This document shows, one piece after another, positions 100 through 18,604 of a DNA stretch of 22,928 nucleotides (position 1 is the stretch's first letter; each line of letters opens with the position of its first letter). Made by a program: the position numbers and the translations under genes. The notes beneath the pieces were generated by a model that was given only the letters and a program-made list of their open reading frames with translations, did no database searches and was not told the origin of the DNA. The DNA comes from a virus: positions 1 to 22,928 of IMG/VR virus record IMGVR_UViG_3300037847_000950. One strand, given 5' to 3'.

Positions 100-3000
100 T
101 TAACAAGCTAGGTAGCCTGAGAAGTTGCTCTGTGCGGATACTGGAATATCCATTTGTGCTGTACCTTCATACTGTCCTATATCAACTAGTGCAGTATCTG
201 AAGCATCCATATCTGCAAGTACAGAAAGTGAAATTTGATCTCTAACTCTATCTGCTGAATAGTTAGGTTCAATTATATAAGTGTAATCTCTATTTGAAGT
301 ACGAATTTCAACTCTTATATAAGTTGCTTCAGCATCTGAATCATTTATATACAAAAGTGCATTAAGTTGATACTTACCTGTTACTGGTGCAGTAAATGTA
401 GAAGTACTTGTATTATAATCTGAATTTTGATCAAAAATTTCAGTAGTAAATCCTACTGTGTTTCTGCTTGCATCAGTTGCAACATTAGTTGTTGCTGTTC
501 CTACTTGTGCAGAAAAAGCTGGTTGCAATGGCATGGTGACCCAACCACCTTGATTTATTTCCATCACAGTAGTGTCACTAGCTTCTTGAACAAAAAGACC
601 GTGTGAGGACGTATCTTTTTGGATAGTCCATTTCTTAGTTCCTACGTTAGTAAAAATAATACCAGCACCGTTTTGTGTAGTAGTATTTTCAACTTCGATG
701 TAAGCATCTGTTGAATGAGCAAAACTAGCAACTGATGTATGGCTTTGATTACCATTTCCTACTGCGAGAAGAGCGTTTGGACTTGTTTCACCAATACCCA
801 CGTTTCCAGAAGTATCAATACGCATTCTTTCAGCATCATTTGTGCGAAAATGCATTGAGTTACTTGAATGCTCGTAGTTCACGAACCCTACGTTGGTGTC
901 ATCCTCATCTTGGAATTGTAGAGATGAAAGTCCTGATGAATTAGCAATCATCCTTAGCCTAGCGTCTCCGCCAGAATTCGTTGATTGAAGAGTAATTTCT
1001 GCATCAGAAGACGTTGATTTAATGTGTAGCAAATCGTTAGGCGAATCAGTCCCAATACCTAATCCAGTTGAGTCCAGAACCATTTTTTCGGAACCAGCAA
1101 CATCAAAGCGTATCTTGTCTTCATCAGAGGACTCTTCGACCTGTATCATTGTATCGCCATCAGCATCAAGTAGCTGATTAGCAGTAGTACTAGAAGTATT
1201 AGTATTTGTAATAGCCTCTACCAAGACTCCAGTAGGAGGAGCAGTACTAAAGGTTAGTGTAGTTCCAGAGATTGAATAGTTTGATTTGCTCTGGTAAACT
1301 CCATCAAAGTATACCTGTACGTTATTCTCATGTACAGGAGCTACAGATAATGTCAGTGTCGTATCACTACCATCACCTGTCATTGTATTAATTGTATTAT
1401 TAGATCCACCTACAGTAGTTGTACTGTGATACGCTGTAATAACCCTACCACTTGCAGGAGCAGCACTTAGCGTTAATGTAGTACCTGATACACTGTAAGC
1501 ATTGTGTGCTTGGAATACACCGTCTACAAATACCATAAGGTTATTTTCATCGTCAGGTGCAGTACTTAATGTAAAGGCAGTAGTAGATCCATCACCAGTA
1601 TAGATATTAGTATCCATATTAGTACCAGAACCACCACCAATAGCTCCCCAAGAGTCCGTATAGCCTTCAAACTTACCAGTAGTACTATTGTATCTAAAGT
1701 ATCCTGCTACGCCTGTGGGCCTCTGTGCTGTTGTACCTACAGGTACGTGTACAGCATCTGTAGCACTACCAATGTCAAGAGAGACATCAGGTGCAGCATT
1801 TAGAATACCTACTCTATTTGTAGATGAATCAACTACTAATGTATTTGAATCCCAATTAAAGTCTCCTGTACCACCTGTCAGTGCAGTAAGAGTTCCTAAG
1901 CTTGTAATGTTTGTTTGTGCAGCAGTCTGTAATGTACCTGTGAGATTGCCTGAGAAGCCTGTAGCAGTCAAAAGACCTGTAGAGGGGTTATAAGTAAGCC
2001 CTGTGTCTGTCTCTGCTCCCTGTGAGCCTGTAGCTCCGTCTACGAAGACAGGGTATACTGTTTCATCAGTTGAGTTATTTGCTGAGACTGTAAAGTTATC
2101 TGCTGTACCTGTAGTATCTTGGTTAAGAGTGCCTATTACAAAGTCTAGCGTATTATCTGAGTCTTCATATGAGACTGTGATATTCGTTTCTGTATTTGAG
2201 CTAACCATAGCTCCTACAGTATCTGCAATAGTTTCTGCTAGTGTTACGCCGTCAATAGTGATAGCATCAGCTTCAAGTGTACCGTCAATGTCTACGTCAC
2301 CACTAATATCCAGTGTAGCTGCATCCAGCTCACCAGTAATTGTAAAGTTTCTAACGCCTGTATAATCCTTGTTAGAATCCAATACAACGGCTTTAGAAGC
2401 TATTGCAGTACCTACTGCTGTACTACCAAGGTCTAGTGCATTAAGCTCTCCTACGACTGCTGTAATGCCGTCTAAGGTATTTATTTCAGACGCTGTAGCT
2501 GTTACACCGTCAAGTATGTTTAGTTCTGCTGCGGTACTTGTTACACCATCAAGAATATTAAGTTCCGCTGCTGTTGAAGTAACTCCGTCTAGAATGTTAA
2601 GCTCTGCGGCTGTAGCTGTTACGCCATCTAGTATGTTTAATTCCGCTGCTGTAGAAGTTACTCCATCTAATATATTAAGTTCTGCTGTTGTACTAGTAAC
2701 GCCATCTAAAATATTTAATTCTGCTGCGGTGCTTGTAACACCGTCCATAATATTAAGTTCAGCCGCAGTAGCTGTAATAGCTGTACCATTTAAATCAAGG
2801 GTATCTATGTAGGCAGTTCCATCTACATATAGATCTTTCCATTCAGATCCTGATGCACCTAAGTCATATGTATTATCAGCACTAGGAAGTAAATTAGAAG
2901 CAACATCAGCACTAAATGCTACTGTATCTGAAGCAGCATCTCCAAAGGTTAAGTTACCTGCAATAGTTGCATTACCTGTTACTGTAAGATTACCACCTAC

Positions 3001-3846
3001 ATCTAGATTACCTGATATGTCAGCAGCACCATTAATATCAATCGTAGTAGCATTTATTTCTATTTCAGTATCAGATACAAGATCAAGTACACCGTCTGCG
3101 CTTTGATGTATGTAAGTACCTGAATCACCAAACTGTAGTTGATCTGTGCTAGATAAAAGAAGTCCAGTATCAGCTACATGAGTAAGAGAAACATCTTGAT
3201 CATCTCCAAAGTAAACTACTGCTCCATCTGCTAAATAAAGATCACTAAACTCTAATGAAGCTGTACCTAATGCAGCACCATCTGAAGCATCAGGGACAAA
3301 AGCTGTAGTAGCTGTAATCGTAGTTCCTTCTATAGTACTAGAACCTGTAATAGCTCCACTAGCTGCTATAGTAGTAAAAGACCCTGCTGCTGCACTAGAC
3401 CCACCAATTACAGCACCATCTACTGTGCCACCATTAATATCTGCTGTATCTGCTACAAGTGCATCTGTAGTTACTGTACCATCAAAATATGCATCTTTAA
3501 ATTCTAATGAGCTTGTACCCAAGTCTATATCATTATCTGTTACAGGTACAATAGCTCCATCCTGTATTCTTATTTGCTCTACTGCGCTACTAGAAACTTC
3601 TACAAAGAAACCCCAACGATTGTTAGAGCTATCAACTACAATTTTATTAAGAAAATCTAAGTCACCAATAGTATGAATGTTACCACCGTGTCCAGCAGTT
3701 CCATCGTGTCTGTGTCCTGTAGCAGTAGCACTAGTAGAAGAATAAGTAAAAGCATTTTCAAGTTGATTGTATTCGTTATTAAATAATGCTGCTGTAATGG
3801 TATCTCCATCTACGAACGTACTTTGTCTAGTATAGCTTTGAGCCAT
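100..3846 (-). CDS. Tail fibre protein with LNILDGVT repeats and C1q-like tip
   Basis: A 1248-aa protein, the largest in the window, probably the receptor-binding fibre attached to the short tail. The N-terminal ~70 residues (MAQSYTRQSTFVDGDTITAA...) form a collar typical of marine podovirus fibres, followed by beta-rich shaft repeats (LGTSSLEFKDAYFDGT, LGASGSEWKDLYVDGT). Residues 360-476 are nine tandem 13-residue units. Two ~60-73 residue copies of a TGDGS...VDGV...SGTTLTLS domain follow, then two fibre motifs of the type MRIDTSGNVGIGETSPN. Residues ~1105-1248 look like a C1q/TNF-type jelly roll (PAFSAQVGT, FDQNSDYNTSTSTFTAPVTG, YQLN). The start overlaps nothing but follows tandem stops (TAATAAATG), and the ribosome site AGGAAGGAG lies inside the upstream gene's last codons. 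Function is known for such fibres; host receptor is unknown. Confidence 0.88.
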   Translation of the reverse strand: MAQSYTRQSTFVDGDTITAALFNNEYNQLENAFTYSSTSATATGHRHDGTAGHGGNIHTIGDLDFLNKIVVDSSNNRWGFFVEVSSSAVEQIRIQDGAIVPVTDNDIDLGTSSLEFKDAYFDGTVTTDALVADTADINGGTVDGAVIGGSSAAAGSFTTIAASGAITGSSTIEGTTITATTAFVPDASDGAALGTASLEFSDLYLADGAVVYFGDDQDVSLTHVADTGLLLSSTDQLQFGDSGTYIHQSADGVLDLVSDTEIEINATTIDINGAADISGNLDVGGNLTVTGNATIAGNLTFGDAASDTVAFSADVASNLLPSADNTYDLGASGSEWKDLYVDGTAYIDTLDLNGTAITATAAELNIMDGVTSTAAELNILDGVTSTTAELNILDGVTSTAAELNILDGVTATAAELNILDGVTSTAAELNILDGVTSTAAELNILDGVTATASEINTLDGITAVVGELNALDLGSTAVGTAIASKAVVLDSNKDYTGVRNFTITGELDAATLDISGDVDIDGTLEADAITIDGVTLAETIADTVGAMVSSNTETNITVSYEDSDNTLDFVIGTLNQDTTGTADNFTVSANNSTDETVYPVFVDGATGSQGAETDTGLTYNPSTGLLTATGFSGNLTGTLQTAAQTNITSLGTLTALTGGTGDFNWDSNTLVVDSSTNRVGILNAAPDVSLDIGSATDAVHVPVGTTAQRPTGVAGYFRYNSTTGKFEGYTDSWGAIGGGSGTNMDTNIYTGDGSTTAFTLSTAPDDENNLMVFVDGVFQAHNAYSVSGTTLTLSAAPASGRVITAYHSTTTVGGSNNTINTMTGDGSDTTLTLSVAPVHENNVQVYFDGVYQSKSNYSISGTTLTFSTAPPTGVLVEAITNTNTSSTTANQLLDADGDTMIQVEESSDEDKIRFDVAGSEKMVLDSTGLGIGTDSPNDLLHIKSTSSDAEITLQSTNSGGDARLRMIANSSGLSSLQFQDEDDTNVGFVNYEHSSNSMHFRTNDAERMRIDTSGNVGIGETSPNALLAVGNGNQSHTSVASFAHSTDAYIEVENTTTQNGAGIIFTNVGTKKWTIQKDTSSHGLFVQEASDTTVMEINQGGWVTMPLQPAFSAQVGTATTNVATDASRNTVGFTTEIFDQNSDYNTSTSTFTAPVTGKYQLNALLYINDSDAEATYIRVEIRTSNRDYTYIIEPNYSADRVRDQISLSVLADMDASDTALVDIGQYEGTAQMDIPVSAQSNFSGYLAC
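1204..1602 (-). repeat. Two-copy internal domain duplication in the tail fibre
   Basis: Two consecutive related modules share the pattern (Y/M)TGDGS-TT-TLS-AP--ENN--V-(V/F)DGV(F/Y)Q---YS(V/I)SGTTLT(L/F)S(A/T)AP. The first runs 1602 to 1384, the second 1383 to about 1204. They sit between the shaft and the NVGIG-type motifs, consistent with a duplicated beta-sandwich module along the fibre. Confidence 0.8.
2419..2769 (-). repeat. Nine tandem 39-bp (13-residue) repeats in the tail fibre
   Basis: Exactly 351 bp, encoding nine units of the form TAAELNILDGVTS. Seven are near identical in protein, the last two diverged (TASEINTLDGITA and VVGELNALDLGST). At DNA level the near-identical units differ at many third positions, so the peptide is conserved while the codons are not. 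The repeat probably forms regular beta-structured fibre shaft. Confidence 0.92.
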
Positions 3847-13987: not shown

Positions 13988-14357
13988 CTATAACAACTTC
14001 TTCCTTAGCAGGTAACACAAATATGCCACCTTCTACTTTATGACTAACATCTAACTTATCAGATTTACCAAGACCGATACGATCTAAAATTGTTTGAGCA
14101 GCTTGTAGTCTTATATTTGCTTGTGGAATAGGTTGATCTGATTCCATAACATTTACAAGCTTCATAGCTGCTTTAGGTGCAGATTGTGCTAATATATTAG
14201 AGGCCAAGTCTATTATTTCATTCTTTAATGCTTTTGTCACTTGCCAATGGGTATTAGCAGCATATCCTGCTTTCTCAGCCGCAATTTTAGGATCACCTCC
14301 TGATTCAATTAGTGAGTCTAAGAAACTTTGTTGTCTAGTTGTCAATTCTTTTTTCAT
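13974..14357 (-). CDS. terS: Terminase small subunit
   Basis: 127 aa at the head of the packaging module, directly before the large subunit's partner gene. The N-terminus has a helix-turn-helix (LTTRQQSFLDSLIESGGDPK, IAAEKAGY) of the small-terminase type and a helical middle (NIRLQAAQTILDRIGLG), ending DVSHKVEGGIFVLPAKE, a tail seen on small terminases. It recognises phage DNA and recruits the large subunit. No Shine-Dalgarno precedes the ATG; the -10 box TATAAT ends six bases upstream, so the transcript likely begins at or within a base or two of the ATG (leaderless). Confidence 0.8.
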   Translation of the reverse strand: MKKELTTRQQSFLDSLIESGGDPKIAAEKAGYAANTHWQVTKALKNEIIDLASNILAQSAPKAAMKLVNVMESDQPIPQANIRLQAAQTILDRIGLGKSDKLDVSHKVEGGIFVLPAKEEVVIDVKT

Positions 14358-14363
14358 TATTCT

Positions 14364-14392
14364 ATTATAGTCCTAGTTTACACATTTGTCAA
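14364..14392 (-). promoter_or_regulatory. Consensus sigma70 promoter for the structural operon
   Basis: On the minus strand TTGACA (14392-14387), 17-nt spacer, TATAAT (14369-14364): a perfect match in both boxes. It fires leftward into the small terminase, whose ATG begins six bases beyond the -10 box. The -35 box is one arm of a dyad shared with the divergent promoter. Confidence 0.9.
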
Positions 14393-14408
14393 GTTTTTTC
14401 TTGACAAA
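14385..14408. promoter_or_regulatory. 9-bp dyad across both -35 boxes (candidate operator)
   Basis: TTTGTCAAG, six T, CTTGACAAA is a perfect inverted repeat. Each arm contains one promoter's -35 hexamer, so the two polymerase sites are about 8 bp apart and cannot both be filled at once, or a dimeric regulator could control both. The loop of six T would be a poor terminator for either direction. Confidence 0.75.
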
Positions 14409-14429
14409 ACTTCAAATCAGTACTATACT
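14401..14429 (+). promoter_or_regulatory. Divergent sigma70 promoter for the early arm
   Basis: TTGACA (14401-14406), 17-nt spacer, TATACT (14424-14429), one mismatch in the -10. Transcription would start near 14436 and the RNA would begin almost at once with the hairpin GACCCC-ACC-GGGGTC (14438-14452). It reads toward the 180-aa early gene through about 640 nt of structured leader. Confidence 0.85.
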
Positions 14430-14660
14430 ATTACATAGACCCCACCGGGGTCATACCTATATTATATAGCCACTTTAAAGGTCTTTAGAGGCGCATCTAA
14501 ACTGGTTTACATCTATTTTAGTTAAAAATGTATATCTATTAGTATATATATGGGGTAGCCCCTATGGCCTCCTGCCTACCCTTCGAAGGTCTATGAAGAT
14601 TCCAAAGGAATCTCATGTTCCCTCTCCAGAGAACTTCCTAGTTTACAAGATCAAAGAGGC

Positions 14661-14708
14661 TCTTTAGAGTCTTTAAAGTTTCAAAGAAACTTCAAAGACC
14701 TCTAAAGA
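14661..14708. repeat. Long imperfect hairpin, AAA loop
   Basis: Arms TCTTTAGAG-TCTTT-A-AAGTTTC and GAAACTT-C-AAAGA-C-CTCTAAAGA pair over about 21 bp with one mismatch and one bulged C around the triloop AAA at 14683-14685. The outer 9 bp and inner 7 bp are perfect. Confidence 0.85.
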
Positions 14709-14896
14709 TTTCAAAGACTTACAAGATTTTGTTCCCTCCTTTAGTAAATACTTGCTAGATTTCGAAGAAATCTAAAGTTGCCGCTCAAAATTGACGCTGA
14801 TTTAGCCTCAAAGACTTCAAAGATCTTTTAGATCTTTGAAGATCTTTGGGTCGGTCGTTCACTTCAAAGACTTCAAAGATCTAAAAGATCTTTGAA
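14680..14896. repeat. Cluster of eight TTCAAAGA words (iteron-like)
   Basis: TTCAAAGA occurs forward at 14680, 14691, 14710, 14816, 14863 and 14872, and inverted (TCTTTGAA) at 14833 and 14889. Clustered short repeats with palindromes in an AT-rich non-coding segment are typical of iteron-like replication origins, but no binding protein is identified here. Confidence 0.6.
14815..14841. repeat. Hairpin A, 11-bp arms, TTTTA loop
   Basis: Arms CTTCAAAGATC and GATCTTTGAAG are perfect around a TTTTA loop. A near-identical element follows 30 bp downstream with the loop inverted. Confidence 0.9.
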
Positions 14897-14897
14897 G
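14871..14897. repeat. Hairpin B, same arms, TAAAA loop
   Basis: The arms are identical to those of hairpin A but the loop is TAAAA, the reverse complement of TTTTA. Hairpin B is therefore an exact inverted copy of hairpin A, as expected if the element was flipped or copied on the other strand. Confidence 0.9.
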
Positions 14898-14920
14898 GCT
14901 TTGCCAATCATGGAGAAATT

Positions 14921-14958
14921 CTTGAACTTTAAAGTCTTTAAAGACTTTAAAGTTCAAG
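14921..14958. repeat. 38-bp perfect palindrome
   Basis: Two 19-bp arms with no spacer: the left arm starts CTTGAACTTTAAAGTC, the centre is TTTAAA and the right arm ends GACTTTAAAGTTCAAG. It contains CTTTAAAG three times. Confidence 0.95.
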
Positions 14959-14961
14959 GTT

Positions 14962-15033
14962 AGTTATCATATCTATAAAAACTTTAAAAGAAGTCACAAA
15001 GTGACTTTTAAAGTTTTTATAGATATGATAACT
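14962..15033. repeat. Giant hairpin with 33-bp arms before the first early gene
   Basis: The right arm (15001-15033) pairs over its whole length with the left arm (14962-14997), which carries three extra bases (about 14990-14992) as a bulge. The apex is GTCAC-AAA-GTGAC. It ends 44 nt before the chosen ATG at 15078. As RNA it would be a strong duplex, a likely RNase III target or translation control element. Confidence 0.93.
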
Positions 15034-15077
15034 TAGAGGTCGGGTTCGAAAAATTTAACCGATTGGAGATGTCGATT

Positions 15078-15620
15078 ATGACAAACGAAAATTTAAGCAT
15101 CGCTGAAGACAAGCAAATTGGCAAGACTGCTAGAATTATAGCAGGAACGATTTGCGAAAGCAAATCCCTGCCGTTTTATCTTGTGAGCTTCAAGCCGAGA
15201 GGCTCAAGCTGGAGTCGTAACGGAAGACTTTCCGTTAGAGTCTTCGCCACCATCAAGAACGCCTTTGGCGGTGAGGTTCCAACACAAGCTCTACGAGCTT
15301 TGGAGCAAGATTGTGAAAACAATCTTACTGGAAAGGGTTCGCAGAAAGTCTTAGCATCTCTAAAAATCGAAGATTTTGTAGAGCAATACGGCACTAAGGT
15401 TTCAAAGAAACCTTCAGTGAAAGCTAAAGCAAAGACTTCTACGAAGTCCAAGCCGACTGCTAAAGTGACTCCAAAGGAGTCTACTAAACCAGCGACCAAT
15501 GCTTTCGCAAAATCTCTTGAGATTAATCTGAAAGCACTGGATCAGGATAATTTGCAATCAGAAGAGATTGAGGCGATACAAGAAAGTCTTCTTCAAACTT
15601 TTGAATTAGCGAAGTCTTAA
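15078..15620 (+). CDS. Early protein of unknown function, hairpin-rich gene
   Basis: 180 aa, first gene after the rightward promoter. I start it at the ATG at 15078 because GGAG (15065-15068) is 9 bases upstream; an in-frame TTG at 15063 and ATG at 15069 lie on or against the ribosome site. Residues ~20-105 form a compact domain (ARIIAGTICESKSLPFYLVS, RLSVRVFATIKNAFGG, EVPTQALRALEQDCENNL), then a Lys/Ser/Thr/Pro linker (SVKAKAKTSTKSKPTAK) and an acidic helical tail. Not recognised. The coding sequence itself holds at least eight perfect hairpins with 6-8 bp stems and 3-4 nt loops. By position it may be a host-takeover or regulatory protein. Confidence 0.8.
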   Translation: MTNENLSIAEDKQIGKTARIIAGTICESKSLPFYLVSFKPRGSSWSRNGRLSVRVFATIKNAFGGEVPTQALRALEQDCENNLTGKGSQKVLASLKIEDFVEQYGTKVSKKPSVKAKAKTSTKSKPTAKVTPKESTKPATNAFAKSLEINLKALDQDNLQSEEIEAIQESLLQTFELAKS

Positions 15621-15629
15621 TTTAAACTT

Positions 15630-15650
15630 GGCCCTCTTCGGAGGGCCTTT
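15630..15650 (+). terminator. UUCG-loop rho-independent terminator
   Basis: GGCCCTC-TTCG-GAGGGCC forms a perfect 7-bp stem with the very stable UUCG loop, followed by TTT and an AT stretch. The T-run is short, so it may be partial. It starts 10 nt after the stop of the early gene and shares two bases with the next hairpin. Confidence 0.78.
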
Positions 15651-15696
15651 ATATATCTTATAAGTAAGTTCTACGAACTTATAAGATATATAAAGG
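15646..15696. repeat. 20-bp-arm hairpin next to the terminator
   Basis: Perfect arms 15646-15665 and 15677-15696 (CCTTTATATATC... / ...GATATATAAAGG) around an 11-nt loop. The apex can refold as AAGTTC-TAC-GAACTT (15666-15680) by slipping a duplicated AAGT. The ribosome site AAGGAGG of the next gene begins four bases after it, so folding may influence its translation. Confidence 0.93.
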
Positions 15697-15710
15697 ACTA
15701 AGGAGGTGTA

Positions 15711-17641: not shown

Positions 17642-18604
17642 TTGAGTAATATAGTTAATATGTTTGAGTCTAGTGTGTTTCCTGAAGGATATGGCGATGC
17701 TGATTTTGAAGTATTGACAGCTACACCATACTACACGGCTGTCCTGAATGATGGTTCTGATATTGAGATAGCGCAAAACAAAAAGAAAGTTTATTTCAGA
17801 ACTGATACTGGTGATGAATTAGGAACACATGGACAACGATATAAGCCTGTACACCACAAGGATATGATTGATAGCACTCGATCAATTCTTAAAAGATCTT
17901 CTTTGAATCTCGATGGTCTTGAAGAAACCATTACTGTCGGAGAGAATGGTGCAGTTTGTTTTGTAAAACATTTACTTCCCGAACACCAGATAACAACTCC
18001 TGATGGTGACACTGGTGAGCTTACATTCCTTGCAGTCAATGCTTATAATTCTAAGATGGCTTACTGGCAGTCAGTTGGGCTTCGACAATCTGCTTGCCTT
18101 AATGGTCAAGTATTTACAACAGGGGCCGCTAGTGTCTACAAGAATAGACATACAATGTCTTTGAATCTAGAACATGCTGCTAAAATAATAAGTAATGTTG
18201 TAGGTATCCTTGATAAAGAGAATGAGATATGGCATCGATGGGCTAAGATGCCGACAAGCAGCGCACAGATGTTTCCTATATTTGCTAAAGCTGCTGGATC
18301 TAAGAAGGCTTTAGATTGTCTTGAAGCTGGCGATGATATGTTCTCGATACTTAGCAATGAAGCTGCTGTTAAAAACAACAAAGCTTTAATCTACATGCTA
18401 ACCAAGTGGACACAAGATTATGCTCCTCGTATGGGTCAGAACTTGTGGGCTGCTTATAATACACTAACTGATTGGTCAACTCACTTTACTCCTGAAACAA
18501 CAAAGAGAACTCCAGTTGTGGACATGCCAATGGTTTCTTACAAGAACTCTGAAACTGTTCGCAGCATTGTGAGTGATACTCCTTTGTTTAAGATGGCGGC
18601 TTAG
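17642..18604 (+). CDS. DUF932-type phage/plasmid protein
   Basis: 320 aa starting at TTG with GGAG eight bases upstream (TTTGGAGAATTATCTTG); the next ATG in frame, six codons on, has no ribosome site. Segments typical of the DUF932 family (phage/plasmid-like protein TIGR03299) are seen: YFRTDTGDELGTHGQRYKPV near 51-70, NAYNSKMAYWQSVGLRQSAC near 133-152 and the helical C-terminus (GQNLWAAYNTLTDWSTHF). The family is widespread in phages and plasmids; its biochemical role is unknown. It has its own promoter and structured leader. Confidence 0.82.
   Translation: MSNIVNMFESSVFPEGYGDADFEVLTATPYYTAVLNDGSDIEIAQNKKKVYFRTDTGDELGTHGQRYKPVHHKDMIDSTRSILKRSSLNLDGLEETITVGENGAVCFVKHLLPEHQITTPDGDTGELTFLAVNAYNSKMAYWQSVGLRQSACLNGQVFTTGAASVYKNRHTMSLNLEHAAKIISNVVGILDKENEIWHRWAKMPTSSAQMFPIFAKAAGSKKALDCLEAGDDMFSILSNEAAVKNNKALIYMLTKWTQDYAPRMGQNLWAAYNTLTDWSTHFTPETTKRTPVVDMPMVSYKNSETVRSIVSDTPLFKMAA

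Follow-up and report, generated by a model that had tools for sequence, protein, structure and literature searches.

The question raised by this locus is why the early control region of a double-stranded DNA (dsDNA) phage should carry a dense run of short hairpins that continues through a coding gene. The window, a stretch of 22,928 nucleotides that forms positions 1 to 22,928 of IMG/VR record IMGVR_UViG_3300037847_000950 (full length 50,856 bases, ~50.9 kb), belongs to a member of the HMO-2011-type marine podoviruses. Its large terminase is related to those of the group (68% identity to Pelagibacter phage HTVC115P, 47% to roseophage CRP-1 and 49% to Puniceispirillum phage HMO-2011), the genome falls in the size range of ~50-55 kb, and the gene order has the early genes rightward and the late genes leftward. 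HMO-2011-type phages are a dominant and widely distributed marine group (PMC9038755), and the function of nearly all of their early genes is unknown. The hairpin array sits in the divergent control region, at a sign change of the GC skew, and extends across gene 1, the first of the early genes.

Hairpins with a stem of at least 6 bp and a loop of 3-5 nt were counted in the window. The region 14380-15700 contained 18 non-overlapping hairpins, compared with 1.41 ± 1.16 in dinucleotide shuffles. Gene 1 alone contained 8, against 0.64 in dinucleotide shuffles and 0.56 in synonymous-codon shuffles; not one of the 2000 synonymous shuffles had as many. The first-pass annotation of this DNA had named shuffles that keep the protein and codon usage as the control that could refute its proposal; the excess survived them. 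Its observations that the hairpins fall in all codon phases (0, 1 and 2) and that no comparable cluster exists elsewhere also held, with 7-8 hairpins per 500 bp in the bins of the array (14.5-15.5 kb) and at most 4 in the other bins of the 50,856-base record.

The loops that it had listed were all present where it had placed them, namely the triloops AAA (14604, 14683, 14998, 15404, 15473), GAA (14764, 15369), TAC (15292, 15440, 15672), TTT (15264, on a 4-bp stem) and ACC (14444), and the tetraloops GAAA (15156 and 15315) and TTCG (15637). Four larger perfect hairpins were missing from its list (14815-14841, 14871-14897, 14921-14958 and 14962-15033; Table 1). The C-G closing pair, which it had given as common to the whole family, is general and not universal, with exceptions such as GGAA-GACT-TTCC at 15218 and TTGT-GAAA-ACAA at 15307. 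The stems of the ~20 hairpins are unrelated in sequence and share short partial repeats only. The region of the 14815-14841 hairpin also pairs with 14871-14903 (33-nt arms, 97%).

Table 1. Promoters, gene, terminator and hairpins of the array-bearing region (window coordinates)
Feature	Position	Strand	Basis or detail
Divergent promoter TTGACA-N17-TATAAT, terminase/late operon	14364..14392	-	Consensus scan, 12/12 matches
Sigma-70-type promoter TTGACA-N17-TATACT	14401..14429	+	Consensus scan, 11/12 matches
First hairpin, GACCCC-ACC-GGGGTC	14438..14452	+	Sequence; at inferred transcript 5' end
Hairpin AGATTCC-AAA-GGAATCT	14597..14613	+	Sequence
Hairpin AAGTTTC-AAA-GAAACTT	14676..14692	+	Sequence
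Hairpin TAGATTTC-GAA-GAAATCTA	14756..14774	+	Sequence
12-bp hairpin CTTCAAAGATCT-TTT-AGATCTTTGAAG	14815..14841	+	Sequence
12-bp hairpin CTTCAAAGATCT-AAA-AGATCTTTGAAG	14871..14897	+	Sequence
17-19 bp hairpin	14921..14958	+	Inverted-repeat sequence
Long hairpin just 5' of gene 1	14962..15033	+	29-bp perfect arms and inner AAGTCAC-AAA-GTGACTT (7 bp)
Gene 1, first early gene	15078..15620	+	180 aa, pI 9.5; 8 hairpins (stem at least 6)
Hairpin GATTTGC-GAAA-GCAAATC in gene 1	15149..15166	+	Sequence
Hairpin TAACGGAA-GACT-TTCCGTTA in gene 1	15218..15237	+	Sequence
Hairpin AAGCTC-TAC-GAGCTT in gene 1	15286..15300	+	Sequence
Hairpin AAGATTGT-GAAA-ACAATCTT in gene 1	15307..15326	+	Sequence
Hairpin AAAATC-GAA-GATTTT in gene 1	15363..15377	+	Sequence
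Hairpin AAGGTTTC-AAA-GAAACCTT in gene 1	15396..15414	+	Sequence
Hairpin GACTTC-TAC-GAAGTC in gene 1	15434..15448	+	Sequence
Hairpin GACTCC-AAA-GGAGTC in gene 1	15467..15481	+	Sequence
Intrinsic terminator GGCCCTC-TTCG-GAGGGCC with T-rich tail	15630..15655	+	Closes the array-bearing unit
20-bp inverted repeat, inner TAAGTTC-TAC-GAACTTA	15646..15696	+	Last hairpin of the array; overlaps terminator tail

The rightward promoter places the inferred transcript start at ~14436-14437, beside the first hairpin, and all 24 phages examined have the same promoter in the corresponding position. The predicted transcript has an untranslated leader of ~640 nt. No array is present on the leftward (late) side, and the leftward promoter forms the boundary. 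Across the 24 phages, hairpin density was 0.82 per kb upstream of the inferred start and 10.8 per kb over the next kilobase; the averaged profile peaked at 23.6 per kb at +200 to +400 and reached background by about +2000. The profile was flat in relatives that share this promoter and lack the array. Coverage by tight hairpins was near background from -135 to -15, except for start-site hairpins close to -10, was 0.02 at the gene-1 start codon, and was 0.15-0.45 further inside the gene.

On the other strand, the leftward promoter (14357-14392) places the inferred start of the late operon 0-4 nt from the ATG of the terminase small subunit. The same spacing was found in 23 relatives with a scored promoter, and this arrangement suggests that the late message is leaderless. 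The window and many of its relatives have a long hairpin directly 5' of gene 1. In HMO-type relatives it is imperfect and 33-39 bp long; across loci L129-L205 (e.g. L133, L193) this conserved hairpin spans roughly -105 to -10 relative to gene 1, between the leader array and the gene, carries regular 3' bulges and resembles an RNase III substrate. The pre-gene hairpin was dropped as a marker of RNA because in the HMO clade it has more G-U pairs on the antisense strand (77) than on the sense strand (25).

Relatives were gathered by a terminase search, and gene-1 homologues were reached through the terminase and family alignments; a single query with the window protein found none in viral contigs or a phage collection. 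The relatives found in this way carry a hairpin zone at the same location, in which the density of perfect 7-bp stems closed by loops of 3-4 nt is 5.8 per kb, versus 0.13 per kb in the late genes of the same loci. A total of 49 homologous gene-1 ORFs contained 288 hairpins, where 34.5 were expected from synonymous shuffling. The cultured type phage HMO-2011 has its array at 53.5-55.2 kb (gp74), with roughly one hairpin per 30 nt, and an array is present at gp01 of roseophage CRP-1. It is absent from HTVC115P, HTVC103P, HTVC033P and CRP-3.

Compensatory stem changes, proposed as a check in the first-pass annotation, were found in relatives, and stem pairing is kept. Pairwise alignments of related zones gave 77 Watson-Crick double changes versus 43 other double changes, counts over related loci being of non-independent events. 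In close pairs, stems changed less than their surroundings (0.015 vs 0.095, 0.058 vs 0.174 and 0.083 vs 0.307). Examples are CACTAC-TAC-GTAGTG, which corresponds to TAGAAC-TAC-GTTCTA, and a hairpin of 46 nt in which many positions are compensated (L010/L013). The nearest relatives of the window are only ~50% identical in the zone and so are too diverged for a full covariation test; its own hairpins show compensatory changes at two sites. At the site of the 14756 hairpin, L010 has TAGTTTAC-AAA-GTAAACTA, with 8/8 positions paired and 2 compensatory changes, and at that of the 14871 hairpin L013 has 11/12 positions paired and 4 compensatory changes. We conclude that the array is real, conserved and under selection. 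Hairpins turn over quickly. L006, the closest relative (terminase 89% identical), has kept the gene-1 homologue and the promoter and has 1 leader hairpin left, which implies that the array is either dispensable or fast-evolving. It provides a natural before/after pair for array loss.

The loops are strand-polar. GAA loops outnumbered TTC loops 31 to 1 on the sense strand (17 to 1 in the non-coding leader alone), and GGA outnumbered TCC 12 to 0. GNA loops numbered 57 sense and 18 antisense, and GNRA loops 12 and 2; coding tetraloops on the sense strand were GNRA in 11 cases and GNYA in 1. The GNA bias was not seen in further clades of the terminase search (12 to 11). RRA made up 76 and GGA 12 of 199 triloops in relatives, and innermost loops showed a sharp cut-off between 4 and 5 nt. 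Strand-polar loops exclude symmetric dsDNA sites and indicate the sense strand. Sequence-specific dsDNA palindromes, as for a dimeric operator, were rejected because the stems are unrelated, inner loops end at 4 nt and the loops are polar.

The sense leader RNA was more stable than the antisense RNA beyond shuffles, by -6.2 ± 1.7 kcal/mol (31/43). Among near-perfect stems or single changes, G-U and A-C were equally frequent (43 vs 43), with no enrichment of G-U. The single-stranded RNA phages MS2 and Qbeta showed the same balance in this test, which is therefore without force, and the inference of DNA that it had first suggested was withdrawn.

The clearest evidence for RNA comes from the Shine-Dalgarno sequences of related array phages. 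With the criterion that GGA be flanked by at least 4 consecutive pairs, the Shine-Dalgarno GGA lay in a C-GGA-G triloop at 36 of 315 early starts in these phages, compared with none of 169 late starts and none of the 130 early starts in phages that lack the array. After removal of similar ORFs, the counts were 23/222, 0/117 and 0/105, respectively. The stems are variable and complementary (e.g. CAAAC-GGA-GTTTG, TTAAC-GGA-GTTAA, CAATAC-GGA-GTATTG), the number of flanking pairs peaks twice, at 0-1 and at 5-6, and an ATG follows the hairpin end by 0-6 nt in 57 of the 78 GGA-triloop hairpins. Such hairpins occur at many early genes in L112-L157, L028, HMO-2011 and CRP-1; the phage of the window lacks start-site hairpins of the C-GGA-G type. 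Start-site hairpins occur in phages that also have arrays, and sister phages that share the promoter and terminase have neither. This is the pattern expected of a regulon with a trans-acting reader. The occurrence of Shine-Dalgarno GGA triloops at many early genes is a finding in its own right.

The first-pass annotation had proposed a functional family of hairpins acting in early RNA or single-stranded DNA (ssDNA). A functional family is strongly supported by the synonymous excess, the compensatory changes, the onset at the transcript start, the loop bias and the Shine-Dalgarno hairpins in relatives. As for the level of action, RNA is favoured over ssDNA, and the sequence patterns indicate that the array is probably selected at the RNA level.

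In gene-1 proteins a disordered linker, rich in Lys in the clade of the window, joins a compact helical N-terminal domain to a C-terminal helix; this modelled architecture would suit RNA binding and self-assembly. Leader arrays of at least 4 hairpins were found in 22 of 23 phages with a detectable gene-1 homologue and in 2 of 19 without, an association confounded by phylogeny. The two array phages counted without gene 1 comprise one with a weak homologue and one AT-repeat artefact. Locus L058 was rejected as a case of an array without gene 1, its hairpins being AT-only AATATT-type repeats. Phages without an array may have distant relatives of gene 1 as their first genes. Comparison of gene 1 with Pfam and PHROG gave no credible family, and two gene-1 proteins modelled with AlphaFold (pLDDT 69-74) had no fold match in the PDB. 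With no known family or fold, the gene-1 protein is a candidate only.

The best explanation overall, with a probability of roughly 0.45, is that the array of the early unit is an RNA platform for a hairpin-binding regulator. The region would form one early unit, with the promoter at 14401-14429, a start near 14437, the leader, gene 1 and the terminator at 15630, and selection would maintain its sense RNA as a series of tight local stem-loops with stems of 6-8 bp and loops of 3-4 nt, usually C-G-closed and often RRA. A single reader, an RNA-binding regulator, would bind all of these hairpins, sensing shape and loop and not stem sequence. The leader and gene-1 array would then serve as a multivalent platform or sponge for this regulator, and the start-site hairpins in relatives as its translational operators. 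The gene-1 product (basic, with a Lys-rich linker and a C-terminal helix) would act on its own message during synthesis.

The existence of a dedicated hairpin-binding regulator is something we infer at a little short of even odds, and the gene-1 product is tentatively put forward as the best candidate for it. It is more doubtful that the gene-1 family reads C-NNN-G triloops by shape, coats the nascent message and controls early genes through the Shine-Dalgarno triloops; if true, this would be a hairpin code new to dsDNA phages and a regulon of sequence-unrelated RNA hairpins. An array confined to part of the group and tied to the gene-1 family and the Shine-Dalgarno triloops would represent a new layer of post-transcriptional control. 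The cultured phages HMO-2011 and CRP-1 make this reading testable.

The onset of the array at the inferred +1, its highest density in the untranslated leader and its fading over 2 kb, together with the hairpin that opens the unit at its inferred 5' end and the terminator that closes it at the 3' end, could also reflect a physical shield without a dedicated reader. In it, stable stem-loops in the long leader of the strong early transcript would remove unpaired stretches and hinder Rho loading and ribonuclease attack until protection passes to translation or to later phage functions. Diverse stems are expected where foldedness alone counts. The narrow loop spectrum, the preference for C-G closing pairs and the RRA loops (76/199) exceed the needs of foldedness, however, a shield does not account for the Shine-Dalgarno triloop hairpins that these phages also have, and array-less sister phages share the promoter and have no such shield; we consider a shield of this kind unlikely. 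Alternatively, the sense (non-template) strand might be exposed, whether by an R-loop or by serving as the lagging-strand template of an origin immediately beyond the promoter, and might fold into mini-hairpins that keep it open or mark priming sites. C-GNA-G, the commonest class of sense-strand triloop, is a very stable DNA motif (PMC4686876), short hairpins extrude from supercoiled DNA in phage N4 (PMC4496689), G-T is tolerated no better than A-C, and the region lies at the GC-skew sign change, though divergent transcription explains the skew too. Folding as ssDNA is nevertheless rather improbable, as the Shine-Dalgarno triloops and the thinning of hairpins at the start codon operate on RNA, and the 11 to 1 ratio of GNRA to GNYA among coding tetraloops of the sense strand is an RNA preference.

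The array could in principle titrate a host repressor of the CsrA type, with the start-site GGA hairpins as its targets. CsrA binds loop GGA over the Shine-Dalgarno sequence, and RNAs with many hairpins, CsrB among them, titrate it (PMC7652899); relatives have 36 start-site GGA triloops. Like the array, CsrB and RsmZ (the latter in the RsmA system) offer loop motifs on many short hairpins per RNA, and CsrA/RsmA operators place hairpins over Shine-Dalgarno sequences (PMC7652899). GGA, which occupies most loops of CsrB-type RNAs, is in contrast found in no loop of the window array and in 12 of 199 triloops of relatives; the loops here are mostly GAA, AAA and TAC on longer perfect stems, and the array runs through a coding gene, whereas RNAs selected by CsrA have mostly six-nt loops and few pairs (PMC7652899). 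A CsrA-type sponge is thus very unlikely. A mutational origin, through template switching at quasi-palindromes in an ssDNA-prone zone, would make perfect hairpins without selection, and would fit stems that are sequence-unrelated, perfect and tight-looped as well as their quick turnover. That stems change less than their surroundings in close pairs is not predicted by correction alone, however, and the strong loop polarity of the leader (GAA 17 vs TTC 1) and the positioning of hairpins on Shine-Dalgarno sequences also speak against a by-product, which we regard as extremely unlikely. An RNA platform read by a hairpin-binding regulator remains the preferred reading.

Several known systems resemble the array in part. 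The three promoters of N4 have conserved bases and a hairpin on the template strand (PMC4496689). The first-pass annotation had pointed to them, as an analogy only, as being triloop hairpins too; a 3-nt loop, C-G closure and a place in an early region are shared. The analogy is not supported: N4 has few promoters with conserved bases, whereas here ~20 variable hairpins with unrelated stems occur, and their GNA loops are on the sense strand (57 vs 18). A search for T7-type RNA polymerase (PF00940) had hits in 0 of 11 records, the control genomes being equally silent. Among phages, translational operator hairpins are known for the MS2 coat protein, T4 gp43 and RegA. Early ribosome-binding sites of the relatives likewise bear a hairpin, and a phage protein is the suspected reader; here, however, a C-GGA-G triloop recurs at many genes on unrelated stems, accompanied by ~20 extra hairpins in the leader and gene. 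A hairpin over the Shine-Dalgarno sequence occurs in relatives only, and not in the window's own phage.

The genomes of MS2 and Qbeta also have dense local hairpins through coding sequence. Those are packaged RNA genomes, whereas the array occupies a single 1.2-kb dsDNA-phage transcript that runs from a promoter to a terminator; structure selected through a dsDNA phage coding gene has a scale otherwise seen in RNA genomes. The type III toxin-antitoxin system ToxIN has near-identical ToxI repeats and a terminator between ToxI and toxN. It resembles the present unit in placing an RNA array before a protein gene, but here the stems are unlike, the array extends into the gene and the terminator lies beyond the gene; near-identical tandem repeats are absent from the array. 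No Rfam family reached the gathering threshold, and the 62 sub-threshold matches were mainly to miRNA-like long hairpins. No description of these hairpins was found in the literature searched, whose coverage was incomplete, and the words 'inverted repeat', 'promoter' and 'terminator' do not occur in the main paper on the HMO-2011 group.

Three further features were observed. In HMO-2011 (NC_021864.1), the hairpin AGTCCG-ACAG-CGGACT is repeated, once inverted, at 53877, 54807, 55342 and about 1260, at several early-gene junctions, and may be a terminator or processing site. An early gene at 17642-18604 of the window encodes a DUF932 domain; in a pattern search, L086 and L087 alone had close relatives of it. 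The minus strand at 100-3846 of the window encodes a 1248-aa tail-fibre-like protein with repeated 'TAAELNILDGVTST' units.
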